This document shows positions 6,234 to 31,428 of a stretch of DNA of 31,428 nucleotides, piece after piece. Below the pieces are notes generated by a model. The model had not been told where the DNA came from, searched no databases, and saw only the letters and a program-made list of their open reading frames with translations. The stretch is from a virus, in IMG/VR virus record IMGVR_UViG_3300048912_000139, positions 1-31,428 of that record. One strand, written 5' to 3'. A program made the position numbers and the translations under genes. Positions within the stretch are counted from its first letter, which is position 1. Each line of letters begins with the position of its first letter.

Positions 6234-6453
6234 CAGCGAGTGGTTCCGAGTCGAGACGAGCGCCGGAACGCCCCTGGCGGAGAACGGGAACAGCCCGGAC
6301 CGGTTCCCGAACAGGGAGTCGGCCGCTGACGCGGCCCGGCGCATTGCGCCCCTCGTGGCGGACGACACGCTGACTGTCGTGAAGTACTCGCGCAAGGAGA
6401 TCCGGACCTTCCGTCGCAAGGTCACAGTCGATGAAGCGGACGTCCCGAGCTAG
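6226..6453 (+). CDS. small unknown protein, 75 aa; last gene of the plus-strand operon
   Basis: ATG 6226 overlaps the previous gene by 8 bases and follows AAGGAGAGCG, a good ribosome binding site. A short beta-rich start (WFRVETSAGTPL) is followed by RESAADAARRIAPLV, a helix, and a basic strand (TLTVVKYSRKEIRTFRRKV). The shape is that of small phage proteins that often follow a 'RFxxRxxAxxxA' pattern. Function unknown. It ends 78 bases before the terminator. Confidence 0.6.
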   Translation: MADSEWFRVETSAGTPLAENGNSPDRFPNRESAADAARRIAPLVADDTLTVVKYSRKEIRTFRRKVTVDEADVPS

Positions 6454-6530
6454 GATGCGAGGGCCGTCCCGGCCCTCCGGCTTCATCACCCGGAACCTCT
6501 CCGCTGGGGCGGCACCCAGCGAGCATGCAG

Positions 6531-6562
6531 AAGGCCCCCTCCTTCGGGAGGGGGCCTTTTTT
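6531..6562 (+). terminator. Rho-independent terminator of the plus-strand operon
   Basis: A perfect 12-bp stem (6531-6542 with 6547-6558) closed by a TTCG tetraloop, with a run of six T at 6557-6562. It lies between the convergent ends of the early (plus) and late (minus) operons. In the minus direction it has no T tract beyond TT, so it acts mainly on plus-strand transcripts. The rest of the 176-base gap (6454-6629) holds only a weak 7-bp hairpin near 6563-6585. Confidence 0.9.
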
Positions 6563-6629
6563 GCGTTCCGAAGAGGGACGGAACGTCTGTACCGCTGCCA
6601 TTCGAGAGGCTACGACAGGGGTCTGACAA

Positions 6630-6917
6630 TCACTCCTGCGTGTCCGTACCTTCACGCTCTGCCAACGCTTCCCCCACAGCATCCTTGATCCGCTGCGTGA
6701 GCACGCCGTTGGTCTGGTGCGTGATCTGGTCGAGCTTCTCGTTCTGCGTCTCCAGCGTCTCGTTCTGCTTCTCCGTACGCGCGTCCAGGTACATGGCCGC
6801 GAGCAGCGGGGTCACCAGGGCGATGTACGACCCGGTGGGACGCTCGAAGAGCGTCAGCAGGATGACGCCGCCGATGATGACGGCGAGCGCTCCGAACTGG
6901 AATCCGGTCAGCTTCAC
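6630..6917 (-). CDS. holin-like membrane protein, 95 aa
   Basis: I place the start at GTG 6917, which overlaps the stop of the upstream 31-residue gene (GTGA). A longer form from ATG 6938 is possible. Two hydrophobic segments (about 9-26, GALAVIIGGVILLTLF; about 31-47, SYIALVTPLLAAMYL) are followed by a coiled-coil-like charged tail (RTEKQNETLETQNEKLDQI). Two membrane spans with a charged tail fit a holin or related small phage lysis protein. It is the last gene of the leftward operon, next to another small membrane protein and a peptidoglycan-binding protein, which supports a lysis role. Confidence 0.6.
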   Translation of the reverse strand: MKLTGFQFGALAVIIGGVILLTLFERPTGSYIALVTPLLAAMYLDARTEKQNETLETQNEKLDQITHQTNGVLTQRIKDAVGEALAEREGTDTQE

Positions 6918-13266: not shown

Positions 13267-14241
13267 TCAGGAGCTGTTGATCGAGGACGACGTCTCGGCC
13301 CTGATGAGGGCCTCGTTGCGGTAGATCTTCCAGCCGGCCACGCCGTACCAGCCGAGCGGACGGAACCGCGCGAGCTTGTCCACGATGGGACCCGCGACCA
13401 TGTGGAACTCGTCCGCCACGGCCTCGGCCAGCGCCTGCTGGCCCGCGTAGTACGTCTTGAAGCGGCGCACGGTGTTGTCACCGGTACCGGCGTCCACCGC
13501 GTTGTAGCAACGCGGGCTCTCGACGTAGAAGGCGCCCTCGTAGGCCCCGATCTCGCCGGCCCAGATGTTGCCGGCCGCGGAGTAGTTGTGCGGGTCGCGC
13601 CAGGCCGCGGCGCCGGTCTCCGCGCGGAGGTCGTGGGAGACCTCCGGGTGGATCGCGGCCCAGTACATCGAGCCCTTGCGGGGCACGGCCTTGTTCGCAC
13701 GGAGCTTGGCCGTGGCCAGGCGCGCGATGGCCGAGTTGAAAATGTCGGTCGCGACCATGGTCGTACCGACCGGCGTCGACACGGTGCCGTTGGTGGCGTA
13801 GCTGACGACACCGGCCTTGCGCTGGATGACGTTCGTGCCCGAGCGCAGCTCGGTCTGTACGACGGTGTCCACCGAGTCCGCGGCGTTGTACGCCACGATG
13901 TTGGCGATGGCCGGGTCCACGTCGGTGAGCGAGTAGAGGAAGAGCTTCCTGGTGCGGAGCACCGGGTTGCCGTACTCGTTCAGCGTGATCGTGACGGTGG
14001 TCGGGTTGCCGAGCGCCACCGAGTCGGGGTCGGTGGACTCCGTCAGAGGCGTGGTGGCGGTCGCCAGGTCCTGGAAACGCTCCAGGACGATGGAGCCACC
14101 GGGGCCGGTCTGGTTGACCGGGCGCTTGTCCGCGACGGCCCGGAACATGGGCTGGCTGCGGAGCGCGAACTCGAAGGTCTTGTCGTAGGCGGTCTGGACT
14201 GCGTTGCTCCACGCAGTCGTATCCGTGTAGGCGTTAGCCAT
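13267..14241 (-). CDS. major capsid protein, N4 gp56-like family
   Basis: 324 residues; ATG at 14241-14239 after GAGAGG. The N-terminus (AYTDTTAWSNAVQTAYDKTFEFALRSQPMFRAVADKRPVNQTGPG), the SIVLERFQDLA and the C-terminal DKLARFRPLGWYGVAGWKIYRNEALIR motif fit the N4 gp56-like family of HK97-fold capsid proteins. IHPEVSHDLRAETGAAAWRDPHNYSAAGNIWAGEIGAYEGA also fits the P-domain region of this family. It sits right after the scaffold gene, as expected. It forms the icosahedral head shell. Confidence 0.8.
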   Translation of the reverse strand: MANAYTDTTAWSNAVQTAYDKTFEFALRSQPMFRAVADKRPVNQTGPGGSIVLERFQDLATATTPLTESTDPDSVALGNPTTVTITLNEYGNPVLRTRKLFLYSLTDVDPAIANIVAYNAADSVDTVVQTELRSGTNVIQRKAGVVSYATNGTVSTPVGTTMVATDIFNSAIARLATAKLRANKAVPRKGSMYWAAIHPEVSHDLRAETGAAAWRDPHNYSAAGNIWAGEIGAYEGAFYVESPRCYNAVDAGTGDNTVRRFKTYYAGQQALAEAVADEFHMVAGPIVDKLARFRPLGWYGVAGWKIYRNEALIRAETSSSINSS

Positions 14242-25595: not shown

Positions 25596-25817
25596 TCACT
25601 TCTCCCGGTTCTTGGGGTCCTTGTGGTCTACGCAGAACTTCGTGCGCGGACCGTCACTCCACTTCGGCTGCGAACAGCCGTCGTACTCGCACTCGGCCGA
25701 CGCCGCGGGCTCCTTCGGCTCCTTGGGCTCCTCGGCCGCGGGCCGGATCTGCTGGCAGCCGATCCAGTGCGTCTGCTGGCCGTTCTCGGCCGGACGACCG
25801 CATGTCTGGCACGTCAT
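25596..25817 (-). CDS. small Cys-rich zinc-binding-type protein, 73 aa
   Basis: ATG at 25817-25815 overlaps the portal stop (ATGA). N-terminal C-x-x-C (CQTCGRP) with a downstream HWIGC, a Lys/Glu/Pro-rich linker (EEPKEPKEPAAS), and a second Cys/His set (CEYDGCSQPKWSDGPRTKFCVDHK). This looks like two zinc-binding modules joined by a flexible linker. The C-terminal part has a treble-clef-like C-x4-C...C-x2-H order common in phage small proteins. Role unknown. Confidence 0.6.
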   Translation of the reverse strand: MTCQTCGRPAENGQQTHWIGCQQIRPAAEEPKEPKEPAASAECEYDGCSQPKWSDGPRTKFCVDHKDPKNREK

Positions 25818-27643
25818 GCCGGAACACTCCTCTTGACTGATGCGGAGGCCGTGGGCCGGCCACCACTGGTGAGTCCGGCCAGCAGCGACATGACGTCAGG
25901 CTTGCCGCCCGGCCCCATCTCGGCCTGGCCGGGGGCCACGCCGCCGGGGGCGCCCGTGGTCGGGTTGATGCCGAACGGCACCCCGGGGCCCTGGCCCTCA
26001 CCAGGGCTGCCCGGGGCACCAGGAGGCCCGCCCGCGGGCGTGGGAGACGCGGGCTGGGGCTCCGGCTGGAAGGCGGTCAGGATCGCCTCATGCATGGGCA
26101 TCCGCTCGCGCAGGTCGATCAGGCGCGCGGACTTATGGAGCAGCTCGGTGGGGTCCATGCCCTGCTGGGCCATGATCCCGATGGAGGACAGCAGGGCGAA
26201 GACGCCCTGCTTGAGAGCGTCGGTCGTCTGCTCCTTGTCGACCTCGGCCTGAAGCGAGGCCACGTCCACGTCCATGGGGAGCTGACGCTGGACGAAGTCC
26301 CGCGAGACGAGCTGGTCCCCGCGGAGCTGGAGAAGGAAGATCAGCGCCTGGTTCGGGTTCATCCCGCTGGCGAAGCCGTAGCTCACGCTCACGCGGTAGT
26401 TGCCCTTGATGTCCTTGGCTGGCGTGTAGAACTCCTCGAAGGGCGTCCCGTTGATGACGCCGGAGATGCTCTTCTTCGAGTCGGGCCAGAACTTCTCATC
26501 CATCTCGAAGGCCAGCTCCAGGGCGCGCTCCAGCGCGTCCCCGATGATGAGCTGACCCGTGGCCACCTGAATGTCGTAGCCGCCGTTCAGGGCGTGGACA
26601 CCCTGCCCGGTGATGATCGAAGCGTCCACGTCGCCGGTCGCCGAGGCCGGCGTCCGGGTGCCCTTCATGACCTCCGACGCCAGAAGGGCGTCCTGCTGCC
26701 AGGCGGCCTGCGGCATGTCCGTGCCCACGCGCCGGATCTTCTCCGGGCTGTTCGTCCGGATCACGGCGTCATCCCCGAAGGGGATCTTCTGCACGTCGGT
26801 CGGGATCGCGAGCGGAGCCCGTACGGTCTGCTGCGTGGCCTGAAGGCCCAGCATCGCCATGCGGTTGCGCGCCAGCATCGGCCAGACCACGTCATCCATC
26901 TGCCCGCGGTCCTGCTCGTCCCAGGTCGGCTTCTGAGCGACCGCCACCGGGACCTTGCCGAAGCGGTTCTCGGTCCGCATCAGGACCAGGTTCTTGCGCT
27001 CCGGCATGTAGAGGACGTACTCGTCCTTGTCGCAGAACTTGACCAGCTCAAGCTCCGTGTCCCCGGTGACCTGCCGGCCGTAGGGCTGGTCACCGCCCAG
27101 GATCGCGGTCTGGTACTCGGGGAACTTCGCGGCGAGCTTCCGGGCGCTCTCGCGCCAGACCTTCGTGTACGAGCGCACGTCGCCGTTCAGCGTGTACTCC
27201 ACGTACGACTTCATGGGGTTGTCGATCCGCAGCCGCGGACGACCCTTTTCGAAGTCCGGCTCCACGACGAAGGGCATCGAGCCGTATCCCAAGTACCAGT
27301 CACAGCCGGTCGGCATGTGCTTGCGAAGCCGGGAGTCGATCACGTACGAGTACGCGATCTTCGTCTTCTTGGCCACGAACTTCTTCTGGCGCTCGCTCGT
27401 CACCGTGCCCGGGGCGCAGTTGATGCTGGGCAGCGGCGCCAGGGTCTCCGCGAGCTGACGAAGCGCCGTGTCCAGCGTGTTCGCCGTGATCGGACGCGGC
27501 CAGGCGTCCGGCATGCTGCCCGGTGCGATGTTGTCGATCTTCTGTGCGCGGGCGTCAAAGATCGTCTGATGCCGGGCGTCGCGCTCCTGGTTGTCACGGC
27601 GCAGCGCCTCGACACGAGCCGCGATCTGCGCGATTTCTGCCAT
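25814..27643 (-). CDS. portal protein, 609 aa
   Basis: Start chosen at ATG 27643-27641 because GGAGG lies 5 bases upstream. A GTG at 27649 would sit inside that site. The protein shows portal-like blocks: an N-terminal helix (IAARVEALRRDNQERDARHQTIF), a long helix-strand body with KFVAKKTKIAYSYVIDSRLRKHMPTGCDWYLGYGSMPFVVEPD, then the clip/stem zone. The C-terminus is a long Pro/Gly-rich tail (about 540-609), typical of disordered ends. It forms the ring at the DNA entry vertex. It is encoded downstream of terminase, as usual, but with an amidase gene between them. Confidence 0.75.
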   Translation of the reverse strand: MAEIAQIAARVEALRRDNQERDARHQTIFDARAQKIDNIAPGSMPDAWPRPITANTLDTALRQLAETLAPLPSINCAPGTVTSERQKKFVAKKTKIAYSYVIDSRLRKHMPTGCDWYLGYGSMPFVVEPDFEKGRPRLRIDNPMKSYVEYTLNGDVRSYTKVWRESARKLAAKFPEYQTAILGGDQPYGRQVTGDTELELVKFCDKDEYVLYMPERKNLVLMRTENRFGKVPVAVAQKPTWDEQDRGQMDDVVWPMLARNRMAMLGLQATQQTVRAPLAIPTDVQKIPFGDDAVIRTNSPEKIRRVGTDMPQAAWQQDALLASEVMKGTRTPASATGDVDASIITGQGVHALNGGYDIQVATGQLIIGDALERALELAFEMDEKFWPDSKKSISGVINGTPFEEFYTPAKDIKGNYRVSVSYGFASGMNPNQALIFLLQLRGDQLVSRDFVQRQLPMDVDVASLQAEVDKEQTTDALKQGVFALLSSIGIMAQQGMDPTELLHKSARLIDLRERMPMHEAILTAFQPEPQPASPTPAGGPPGAPGSPGEGQGPGVPFGINPTTGAPGGVAPGQAEMGPGGKPDVMSLLAGLTSGGRPTASASVKRSVPA

Positions 27644-27663
27644 GACCACCTCCGTCGGGGGCG

Positions 27664-28665: not shown

Positions 28666-30603
28666 TCACCAGTTGAGGGCGCCGTCCCAGGCGCCCGCGC
28701 CCTGCTGCTGCAAGGCGAAGTCGATGTCCACGACCATCTGTTGGGCCGCGTCGCGCTCCGAGGTGAACTCGCCCTTGTTGGAGTGCCACCCGCTGAAGTC
28801 GGTCACCATCAGCTCGCGCGCGCGGATCTCGGCGAACCAGAAGGCCATGACGGTGTCCGTCAGGCCCTTCGTCTCGGGGAACCAGGAGCAAAGCTGCTCG
28901 ATGAAGGCGCGCACGCCTTCGGACTGGCTCTGGCTGGGCAGACGGATCATGTTCTGGCCGGTCTGCCACCCGCTGAACAGCGTTGCCATGCTGGCAACAC
29001 CAAAGTCGGTGTCCCACTTGTTGCTGTTCGTGTGGTGCGGCCCCATGAGGCAGCCCCGGGCGGCCAGGAAGCTCTTGATCAGTTGGTCCTGGGTGATCGA
29101 CGCCTGGTAGGCGTTCTTCTCCACCCGCCACTCCGAAATGCCGTAGCGCTCGGTCAGGCGCTCCATCTCGGAGCGCATCTCGTGCGGCGGCATGCCCCGC
29201 TTGTTCACGACGTCCAGGACCCACCGCACGCCGGTCTGGCGGTCCACGCCCAGCACGACCATCGCCGTGCAGCCCGCGGCGGCCGGGTCGAGCCCGGCCA
29301 CGACCAACAGGCCGTCCATCCCGTGCTGGCGGTGCTGCGGCTGACCGCCGAACATCCGGCCCGGGTAGCGGGCCCGGTCGATGCAGCCCTGCACGTCCGC
29401 CTGCTTGAAGATCGCGTCATCCGCGACCTGATCTTGCATGTAGACCATGGACCAGTTGCGCGGCGTCATCTTGCGCCGCTTCCTGGCCAGGGCCTCCCCG
29501 TGCCACATCGGCCAGAGGCCGTCCCTTGGCCAGCCCTGCTCACCCGCGGTCTTGCGCGCCTGGATGGTGACGGGCGGCCGGTTGGTGGCCGGCCAGAGCG
29601 TCTCCCAGTCCTTCGGGTCGTCCGCGAAGTTCAGGACGGCCGGCTGGGTCAGGTACGTCCAGGGGCTCGAACCCTCGGAGTAGTACTGGGGCTTGAGGAT
29701 CTCCGAGTAGAGATCCACGGTCGACATGCGCGTGCCGACCAGCAGCATGCGGCCCCCGACGTCAGCGACGCGGGAGCCCACGATGTTCTGAATCCAGTCG
29801 ATCTGGTTCTCGAACTGCTGGTGGTTCGTGTTGTCCACGCAGTCGTCCATGATGACCAGGTCGGTACGGGTGCCGTAGATCTGGCCGCCGATGCCGACGG
29901 CCTCAACGGTGTACTCCTTCTCGCCGGAGTCCGCGCCGGCCACACGGATCTGTGTGGCGCTCCAGGTGGACGCGCCCTCGGCGAAGCCGCCGGGCGGCCC
30001 GAAGGCCTGCTGGAGATCGATGTACGACTCCGACTCGGCAAGCCTCTGCTTGATCGAGAACAGGAACTTGGCCGCCATGGACTGCGTCTTGGAGACGAGC
30101 AGGATGCGGATGTTCGGGTCCTGGCAGATCCGCCACACCACGTAGTTCACGGTGAGCGTCGTGCTCTTCGCGTGCTCCGGGGGCGTGTTGACCACGATCT
30201 GGTCCTCGTCGCCCTTGACGTAGCGCTGGGCCGGGTGGAGCCCGCGGGGCTCCCGGCCCTCCAGCAGGTCGTACCACTGGAGGTGGTGCGTGAAGAGCCT
30301 GGTCCCCAGGTACTTCTCACAGAACTCGGGGAAGTCGGGGACCTCCTGCTTGGCCCCCTTGGCCTTCTCGATGTTGCTCTGAAGCGCCCGGTCGATCAGG
30401 TCCCGGAAGTCCGGGTCCCGCTTGCGGTAGTAGTCGTACGTGGAGCGGACGATGCCGGCCTGCCGGCATCCCTCCTCGATGGTGTGCCCCATGCGGACCG
30501 TGGCCAGGATGATGTTCCGGCGGTCCTTCGAGGACGCCTGGGAGATCCGGCGGTCCCTCGGCTTGGCCAGGGAGCCGTCCTTCTCCACCCTCAGGCGCGC
30601 CAT
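28666..30603 (-). CDS. terminase large subunit with N-terminal HTH, 645 aa
   Basis: ATG at 30603-30601 with GGGGAG upstream. Residues about 30-75 (RNIILATVRMGHTIEEGCRQAGIVRSTYDYYRKRDPDFRDLI) have the pattern of a helix-turn-helix as in small terminase subunits. The ATPase follows: Walker A TPPEHAKST (140-148) and Walker B LVIMDD (249-254). The nuclease part has the acidic residues D439 (AGLDPAAAG), E495 (WRVEKNAYQ) and D583 (TDTVMAFWF). It packages DNA into the head through the portal. No separate small subunit is found beside it, so the N-terminal HTH may serve in DNA recognition. Confidence 0.85.
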   Translation of the reverse strand: MARLRVEKDGSLAKPRDRRISQASSKDRRNIILATVRMGHTIEEGCRQAGIVRSTYDYYRKRDPDFRDLIDRALQSNIEKAKGAKQEVPDFPEFCEKYLGTRLFTHHLQWYDLLEGREPRGLHPAQRYVKGDEDQIVVNTPPEHAKSTTLTVNYVVWRICQDPNIRILLVSKTQSMAAKFLFSIKQRLAESESYIDLQQAFGPPGGFAEGASTWSATQIRVAGADSGEKEYTVEAVGIGGQIYGTRTDLVIMDDCVDNTNHQQFENQIDWIQNIVGSRVADVGGRMLLVGTRMSTVDLYSEILKPQYYSEGSSPWTYLTQPAVLNFADDPKDWETLWPATNRPPVTIQARKTAGEQGWPRDGLWPMWHGEALARKRRKMTPRNWSMVYMQDQVADDAIFKQADVQGCIDRARYPGRMFGGQPQHRQHGMDGLLVVAGLDPAAAGCTAMVVLGVDRQTGVRWVLDVVNKRGMPPHEMRSEMERLTERYGISEWRVEKNAYQASITQDQLIKSFLAARGCLMGPHHTNSNKWDTDFGVASMATLFSGWQTGQNMIRLPSQSQSEGVRAFIEQLCSWFPETKGLTDTVMAFWFAEIRARELMVTDFSGWHSNKGEFTSERDAAQQMVVDIDFALQQQGAGAWDGALNW

Positions 30604-30748
30604 GCGTGCTCCCCACGTCCCACGGGCCCCCTGGGGGCCACTGCGGGGCGGGAAGGTACGGCCGCTAGCGCTTTTCTGCTATCGGCCCTTGAATGCGCGA
30701 CAGGCCCCCTGGAGGGCCCCCGCATTTCATAACGAGGAGGTCACGGCG
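30604..30748. promoter_or_regulatory. divergent control region between terminase and plus-strand zinc-finger gene
   Basis: 145 bases between two divergent starts. At 30664-30683 lies a 20-bp imperfect palindrome, outer hexamers GCTAGC and GCTATC around GCTTTTCT, whose sister site is at 14953-14972. GC-rich short palindromes flank it (near 30626-30640 and near 30701-30717). A ribosome binding site, ACGAGGAGG, ends 10 bases before the ATG at 30749. No clear sigma-70 promoter is visible in either direction, so its promoters are probably not standard. This is likely where the late (left) and early (right) transcription units begin. Confidence 0.55.
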
Positions 30749-31003
30749 ATGAAAGCCCGACGAGCCAGCAAGTGCACTCCCTGTGGAGAGCGAATCGAAG
30801 TCGGCGACGAGATCGCAGCCTTCCTCGGGAAGTGGACGCACGCGGCCTGCAAGGAGGCCGACATAGCCCGTCGCGCGGCCCTCGTGGGGCCGCCGGTCGA
30901 GATAGCCCCACAGGGCCCAGATAACGCAACTGTGGCGTACGTGGGCGTCCGCTCCGAAAGGCACCGAGGGCTTCGGGCCCTCCGGGACCAACAGCGGCGC
31001 TGA
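30749..31003 (+). CDS. small zinc-finger protein, 84 aa
   Basis: ATG 30749 with ACGAGGAGG 10 bases upstream. The N-terminal 35 residues carry SKCTPCGERIEVGDEI...WTHAACKEAD: a C-x2-C...H-x3-C layout, close to small treble-clef/PARP-like fingers that bind nucleic acid. A tail of unclear structure follows. It is the first gene of the rightward unit, next to the control region, so an early regulatory role is plausible but unproven. Confidence 0.65.
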   Translation: MKARRASKCTPCGERIEVGDEIAAFLGKWTHAACKEADIARRAALVGPPVEIAPQGPDNATVAYVGVRSERHRGLRALRDQQRR

Positions 31004-31058
31004 CCAGGGCTTCTGACGGACGATCAATGCATGGGCGCTGCACCCTGATTTGCAGGGG

Positions 31059-31199
31059 GTGTGTAAGCTGGACCGCAGCGAGCTGGACCCGGAAGAAAAG
31101 CACTTCCGTGCCCAACTACGGCACCCCAAAGGGGTGCAGCAGGCGCCTTCAGGCGCCGGAGAAAGCGAGGGCCGCCACCAAGGCGGCCCTTTCGCATGA
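31059..31199 (+). CDS. possible small protein, 46 aa
   Basis: GTG 31059, preceded closely by AGGGG, gives MCKLDRSELDPEEKHFRAQLRHPKG... ending at TGA 31197-31199. The first 25 residues read like a charged helix. The C-terminal part (QQAPSGAGESEGRHQGGPFA) is encoded by hairpin arms, so it may not be selected as protein. Its stop overlaps the next possible ATG (ATGA). It is equally possible that this stretch is only part of the structured region. Confidence 0.35.
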   Translation: MCKLDRSELDPEEKHFRAQLRHPKGVQQAPSGAGESEGRHQGGPFA

Positions 31200-31285
31200 G
31201 GGCCTTGAAAGGCCCAGCGGAGCCGCCGGTGAGGCGGCTCCGCGACTGGGGGGTTGCACACCGATCCCTGGTCGGAGACCAGGGA
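31090..31285. repeat. array of seven perfect hairpins
   Basis: Back-to-back inverted repeats, all perfectly paired: 31090-31108 (6 bp); 31121-31137 (7 bp, loop AAA); 31142-31157 (6 bp, loop TTCA); 31165-31195 (8 bp plus 4 bp, then TTT inside the outer arm); 31200-31215 (6 bp, loop TGAA); 31217-31243 (11 bp); 31265-31285 (9 bp, loop GGA). Gaps between them are mostly 1-12 bases. One hairpin, 31165-31195, resembles a weak terminator. The rest have no T run. Such density is far above what the coding parts of the window show. A structured RNA, an origin, or a cluster of control hairpins are possible. Confidence 0.7.
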
Positions 31286-31330
31286 GCGGGGGCGGAGCGG
31301 CGTTTAACACCGGGGGGTCATACCCGGTGA
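31196..31330 (+). CDS. possible small protein, 44 aa (weak)
   Basis: ATG 31196 in an ATGA overlap, ending TGA 31328-31330. The reading (MRALKGPAEPPVRRLRDWGVAHRS...) passes through two strong hairpins (31217-31243 and 31265-31285) and into the three-way junction. The amino acid content looks like random Gly/Arg/Pro-rich translation of GC-rich stems. I list it only because the junction is ordinary for this phage; RNA structure is the better explanation. Confidence 0.2.
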   Translation: MRALKGPAEPPVRRLRDWGVAHRSLVGDQGAGAERRLTPGGHTR

Positions 31331-31384
31331 GAAACGCACAGGTCAGACATGGTGCAGGCCACAGAAGGCCTGCTCCGCCCCCGC
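31286..31384. ncRNA. candidate structured RNA or DNA element, three-way junction
   Basis: A 13-bp perfect outer stem, 31286-31298 with 31372-31384 (15 bp if the flanking GA/TC are used), encloses two inner stems. The first is 31300-31305 with 31332-31337, then a 2-by-2 internal loop (AA/AG), then 31308-31314 with 31323-31329 and an 8-base loop. The second is 31354-31360 with 31367-31373 (its last two pairs compete with the outer stem). A 16-base linker joins them. Another hairpin, 31389-31412, follows. I cannot tell the strand, as every pair is Watson-Crick. I know of no named RNA with this shape. Confidence 0.5.
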
Positions 31385-31428
31385 TCTGGCGAGGGGGACT
31401 ACCGCCCCCCGCGCTCATCGCTCGGGGC

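Follow-up and report, generated by a model that had tools for sequence, protein, structure and literature searches.

A predicted non-coding folding element conserved upstream of the terminase gene in Streptomyces-type phages

Results

The linear IMG/VR record IMGVR_UViG_3300048912_000139 was analysed over its whole length of 31,428 bases (hereafter the window), and at its right edge lies a dense field of hairpins that is the subject of this work. The gene that anchors this element is the terminase large subunit, found on the minus strand at 28666-30603 (PHROG 38, E 2e-73) in a minus-strand gene set with the portal gene (25814-27649, minus). Judging from the sequences of its relatives, the field is part of a conserved non-coding folding element of a large clade of Streptomyces-type phages, belonging to no catalogued RNA family.

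For the last 425 nt (31004-31428), the folding energy is -247.5 kcal/mol on the plus strand (z -7.99) and -246.8 kcal/mol on the minus strand (z -8.23), a stability reached by none of 100 dinucleotide shuffles. Perfect hairpins cover 43% of positions 31101-31400, the highest value for any 300-nt window in the 31.4 kb (mean 6.5%); a second hairpin-rich stretch, at 6301-6750, has about 30% of its bases in such hairpins. All nine stems listed in the original prediction are present where it had placed them, but the ninth (31389-31412) was mis-paired and is probably half of a helix that we call P1: it contains GAGGGGGAC (31391-31399), and in relatives the same stretch is the 3' arm of P1. The stretch 31286-31384, listed as a junction, belongs to P2, a 15-bp helix in which 31284-31298 and 31372-31386 pair to close a multi-branch junction.

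In relatives, a hairpin array of 0.5-1 kb and a conserved core of about 190 nt lie within 2 kb of non-coding DNA that separates divergent early genes from the terminase. Once reversed in strand, window positions 31199-31412 are 70-81% identical to DNA upstream of the terminase in these relatives, whose hairpins continue several hundred bases further upstream, past the position equal to the window edge. Comparison with these loci indicates that the element extends past our contig, which carries the 3' part only, the array and the 5' arm of P1 lying beyond the right edge. Under a strict perfect-stem rule, hairpin clusters span 0.13-0.89 kb across phages, and low fold z-scores extend over about 0.7-1 kb in relatives; a full copy (L023 2850-3610, 761 nt) has a fold z of -12.6. 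Metagenome contigs often end in or beside the array (the window at 31428, L010, L019, L024, L026, L127, L128, L136 and L145). Because the breaks are scattered in position, they cannot be taken for a physical end of the genome; the hairpins probably break assembly, and the element would therefore be under-represented in databases.

On the minus strand, the 5' to 3' order is a variable hairpin array, P1, P2 (enclosing P2a and P3), P4, a linker, P6, variable hairpins and a 3' module. The parts that fall within the window, and the block that follows them, are:

31211-31399, minus: whole conserved core (covariance model R1, 180 bits; the window sequence is in the training set)
31391-31399, minus: 3' arm of P1, GTCCCCCTC on the minus strand; relatives pair GAGG(G/C/T)GGAC with GTCC(C/G/A)CCTC
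31372-31386, minus: 5' arm of P2, GAGCGGGGGCGGAGC, the long-range helix closing the core junction; 15 of 15 pairs with double changes in 26 sequences
31354-31373, minus: P2a, a variable hairpin within P2, retained with a different sequence in relatives
31300-31337, minus: P3, with invariant TGACCCC (31314-31320) and conserved TGTTAA (31304-31309), from invariant alignment columns
31284-31298, minus: 3' arm of P2, GCTCCGCCCCCGCTC, from the covariation alignments
31266-31284, minus: P4 hairpin CCCTGGTCTCCGACCAGGG with conserved loop TCTCC, from alignment and covariation
31246-31255, minus: conserved linker AACCCCCCAG, from invariant columns
31217-31243, minus: P6 hairpin, 11 bp; 6 of 7 modelled pairs covary
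31121-31215, minus: downstream variable hairpins (31200-31215, 31165-31195, 31142-31157 and 31121-31137); L024/L047 homologous at 74% DNA identity
31064-31108, minus: 3' module, a CGGAAG-TGCTTTT-CTTCCG hairpin and then a direct repeat GGTCCAGCTCGCTGC / GGTCCAGCTTA; several relatives keep GGTCGAGCTTCGCTGGGTCGAGCTTAGCTG
30652-30683, minus: conserved GATAGCAGAAAAGCGCTAGC..GTACCTTC block directly upstream of the terminase (alignment A5)

P1 can be written GAGGnGGAC/GTCCnCCTC, the variable pair being seen as C-G, G-C and T-A, while P2 measures 14-15 bp across relatives. The conserved single-stranded motifs (TGACCCC, TGTTAA, the TCTCC loop and the linker) speak for a structured RNA. The direct repeat of the 3' module reads GGTCCAGCT in the window and GGTCGAGCT in other loci. 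After this module comes the pre-terminase block, also written GCTAGCAGAAA...GCTAGC..GTACC, which is probably a separate late promoter or operator. At the other end, ten close loci have a promoter-like block, CGCATAAATGCACGTCA (14-17 of 17 matches), 395-733 nt upstream of the core; it precedes the array and adjoins a conserved operator/promoter region.

Base pairing is retained through sequence change. Aligned by sequence only, 16 cores have paired bases in 97.4% of cells and a covariation of 0.334, versus 0.109 in shuffles; in an alignment of 26 sequences fitted to the model it reaches 0.679 (0.156 when shuffled), and slid controls give at most 0.15. In the model-fitted alignment, 25 of the 27 core pairs have changed on both sides, so that the absence of compensatory changes, which would have spoken against the original prediction, was not observed. 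The sequences are phylogenetically related and the array alignments are noisy. Homologues keep no coding frame, as the original prediction had supposed in finding no convincing protein. Rfam gave no match, neither in the window, at gathering thresholds, nor near the array in six relatives, where E values up to 1 were allowed. The idea of an undescribed structured element is thus upheld: compensatory changes are present, and there is neither a protein frame, nor a set of terminators (see below), nor a match in Rfam.

A covariance model built from the 16-core alignment recovers the core from about 32 contigs, prophages included, always on the terminase strand and upstream of the terminase; the matches comprise chromosomal Streptomyces prophages and two Streptomyces whole-genome shotgun contigs (45 and 46 kb). 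Weaker minus-strand matches of the model at the same sites are the P2 palindrome read backwards. The model also matches eleven sequences that lie outside its training set, with E values of 5e-18 to 1e-4. In 393 Streptomyces genomes, strong matches (E below 1e-7) occur only in genomes with the terminase, and three weak ones have E values of 0.002-0.006. Contigs carrying the core at this fixed place and orientation have terminases that are 64% identical or more. Neither the Beephvirinae nor those more distant terminase relatives that we checked have the array; searches of INPHARED and PLSDB at the DNA level returned no match to the element, and our literature searches found no report of the hairpin array.

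This distribution bears on whether the hairpins could be a functionless mutational by-product, their perfection maintained by template switching. Such a process would yield compensatory changes that pass through few wobble intermediates, and arrays whose size differs between phages, both of which are seen. However, it does not account for invariant unpaired motifs, for the fixed place and orientation beside the terminase, or for the confinement of strong matches to the terminase clade, and we consider it very improbable.

The loops tell which strand folds. Among about 580 unique perfect hairpins, in post hoc tests over several loop classes, there are 15 GNRA tetraloops on the terminase strand versus 1 on the other, and C(GNA)G triloops and C(GNNA)G tetraloops are split 37:12 and 29:8 in the same direction; background hairpins (29:27) have no such tetraloop bias. 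The asymmetry of GNYA loops (17 versus 12) is not significant (GNRA versus GNYA, Fisher p 0.016). Against within-loop shuffles, GNRA enrichment alone is modest (p 0.01), and the strand asymmetry, found post hoc, is the stronger signal. Because a purely double-stranded cruciform cannot yield this loop bias, it is the single-stranded terminase strand that folds. The folded strand is therefore the minus strand, opposite to the rightward unit whose first gene the hairpins had been said to follow in the original prediction. And since GNRA loops are biased while GNYA loops are not, RNA is favoured.

Alternatively, the packed palindromes might be a DNA element: the terminase strand, when single-stranded in replication or at an end of the genome, would fold and serve as an origin or site of single-strand initiation, a terminus or a packaging site. 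We regard this as unlikely, although it is the main rival, and the same low weight falls on its candidate recognisers, namely the phage primase-helicase, the terminase or a terminal-repeat mechanism. The C(GNA)G and C(GNNA)G ratios also fit single-stranded DNA, as do strictly Watson-Crick stems with no wobble preference. The topology of Streptomyces telomeres resembles P2 around P2a and P3 (PMC4513846), the site beside the terminase corresponds in gene order to the terminal-repeat region of phage Manuel, and a primase, a DnaB-like helicase and a RusA-like resolvase are encoded by the phage. Yet the terminal regions of Manuel and Dennebes are not so structured (z -0.7, -3.0 and -1.9) and lack the core, the excess of the GNRA over the GNYA asymmetry is RNA-like rather than DNA-like, and several full-length contigs, like the chromosomal prophages, carry the element internally. 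No Tap- or Tpg-like protein was seen among the ten early open reading frames (ORFs) of G001:C51 in an NCBIfam scan, which is not exhaustive. The replication origin put forward as an alternative in the original prediction thus survives as a doubtful rival, a control or origin DNA element, and not as the reading that we favour.

Several observations weigh against RNA. The C(UUCG)G loop is absent from the hairpins counted above, and GNA triloops and GNNA tetraloops are also extra-stable as DNA loops. G.T pairs make up 1.3% of cells in core stems, compared with 4.9% in Streptomycetales RNase P; substitutions in the array gave 17 G.T to 15 A.C, those within hairpins 13:9 and those in the core 9:5. 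A strand test based on the energy gained from G.U pairs gave no signal (L/other ratio 1.26, about 1.21 in shuffles). Scanning revealed no sigma-70-like promoter or terminator, and hairpin repair by template switching could make compensatory changes without selection on RNA. As for the wobble counts, RNase P with a projected structure yields 23 G.T to 3 A.C, but just 61:36 through the pipeline used for the element, which leaves these comparisons with low power, and we have for this reason withdrawn these counts as evidence against RNA. Conversely, covariation alone does not prove RNA, because the stems are almost purely Watson-Crick and wobble counts show no clear preference.

The scarcity of G.U pairs would be accounted for by a bidirectional terminator or insulator array between the early and late units: hairpins that must fold in the transcripts of both strands would survive only as perfect Watson-Crick stems. 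The position between divergent units is also in keeping with such a role, and L010/L011 carry a hairpin with an A-tract and a T-tract right after the core. On the other hand, the original prediction had argued that the hairpins are not a set of terminators, and there are indeed no intrinsic-terminator-like sites in 30500-31428 and none in the array of L023; the long-range 15-bp P2, the invariant linkers and the strand-specific loops are also left unexplained. We find this improbable.

Of the named phages, the Beephvirinae (Manuel, Dennebes and others) are nearest: their terminases share about 51% identity with that of the window, and part of the late region is about 67% identical at the DNA level; IMG/VR relatives are much nearer, with terminase identities of up to 95%. 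A contig from S. himalayensis PSKA28, NZ_JACEHE010000046.1, encodes a serine integrase, a primase, a DnaB-like helicase, a RusA-like resolvase, an exonuclease and WhiB, and other relatives bearing the element sit in bacterial chromosomes as prophages, so that these phages are very probably temperate. The contig ends of G194:C27 (46451 bases, Streptomyces isolate) overlap by an exact 21 bp, so that this phage genome assembled as a circle; this array-bearing contig has a Type II hammerhead ribozyme (L102 7157-7221, minus; 52.8 bits, gathering 37). In the window, ARAGORN calls a tRNA with a 4-base anticodon within coding sequence (13348-13437, minus), probably spuriously. Between terminase and element lies a gene for an 84-aa CxxC protein (30749-31003, plus) with no Pfam match, whose transcripts would cross the element antisense. 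Opposite-strand early genes are interspersed with a repeated unit (L022 and L023 1-1800, L089 5100-5950) made of a GGAGAGGCnnTGATCATG start, a conserved spacer and a terminator-like hairpin, which suggests a shared regulatory leader. The divergent promoter region holds a conserved dyad, TGACCACGATCGTGGTCA and TTGACCTGCACTGATGAGGGTTGCCT (L023 2470-2560 and homologues), likely a repressor operator.

Discussion

On balance we lean towards a new large structured phage RNA of about 0.5-1 kb, predicted from sequence to lie on the terminase strand. We prefer RNA because of its prior plausibility, the conserved linkers and the GNRA signal. The variable 5' array of perfect hairpins, the conserved multi-helix core (P1-P4 and P6) and the 3' module would form one non-coding RNA, transcribed from non-coding DNA that lies between the early promoter region and the promoter block of the terminase itself, and independent of terminase translation. 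Such a molecule may act as a structural or decoy RNA, as proposed for GOLLD and ROOL, in whose manner many interchangeable hairpins would hang on a conserved core.

With a covariance model, a helix map and invariant motifs, this folding element, uncatalogued and widely conserved in soil actinophages, is now defined, and because Streptomyces strains carry it as prophages its function is open to testing. Large RNAs without a known function pose an open problem in phages; should the element work as DNA, a double-stranded DNA phage would have an unusual origin or terminus, rich in hairpins.

Among known systems, put-like antitermination leaders and intrinsic terminators also consist of consecutive hairpins, but our element has far more of them, a long-range helix and no T runs, and upstream of the terminase there is a separate conserved block. 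The terminal repeat region of Manuel, in which 276 bp of the left end are repeated at the right one, occupies the same place relative to the terminase within the same overall gene plan; it differs in having no hairpin array, no core match or sequence similarity, and weak fold z-scores. The telomeres of Streptomyces linear replicons consist of palindromes packed tightly together, whose GCA loops are closed by sheared G:A pairs, and of a helix enclosing two hairpins (PMC4513846). Packed palindromes, short GNA-type loops on one strand and a helix enclosing hairpins are found here too, in an element that lies beside the terminase, internal in several full-size contigs and in chromosomal prophages, with no Tap or Tpg in the ten G001:C51 ORFs checked. 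The comparison is one of form only.

GOLLD and ROOL are ornate large RNAs of phages and prophages whose function is unknown (PMC12286853). Like them, our element is encoded by phages and prophages, measures hundreds of nucleotides, is dense in hairpins and combines a conserved with a more variable region; the less conserved region of GOLLD is its 5' one (PMC12286853), and the 5' array is likewise variable. In contrast, GOLLD and ROOL are transcribed, oligomeric RNAs often located near tRNA islands, whereas our element, known here from its sequence and with nearly strict Watson-Crick stems, adjoins the terminase, and array-bearing loci have no standard tRNA gene (one undetermined match only, in L101). 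The Rfam models of both families give no match in the window or in the six relatives scanned, in agreement with the original prediction, which saw no sequence link to them, and we reject membership in either family on this ground and for want of tRNA islands. It is conceivable, though we put it forward tentatively, that temperate actinophages harbour a new class of element unrelated to GOLLD and ROOL, either an ornate RNA of ~1 kb in which a conserved core bears dozens of interchangeable hairpins, or a telomere-like 'rabbit-ear' single-stranded DNA that starts replication or packaging.
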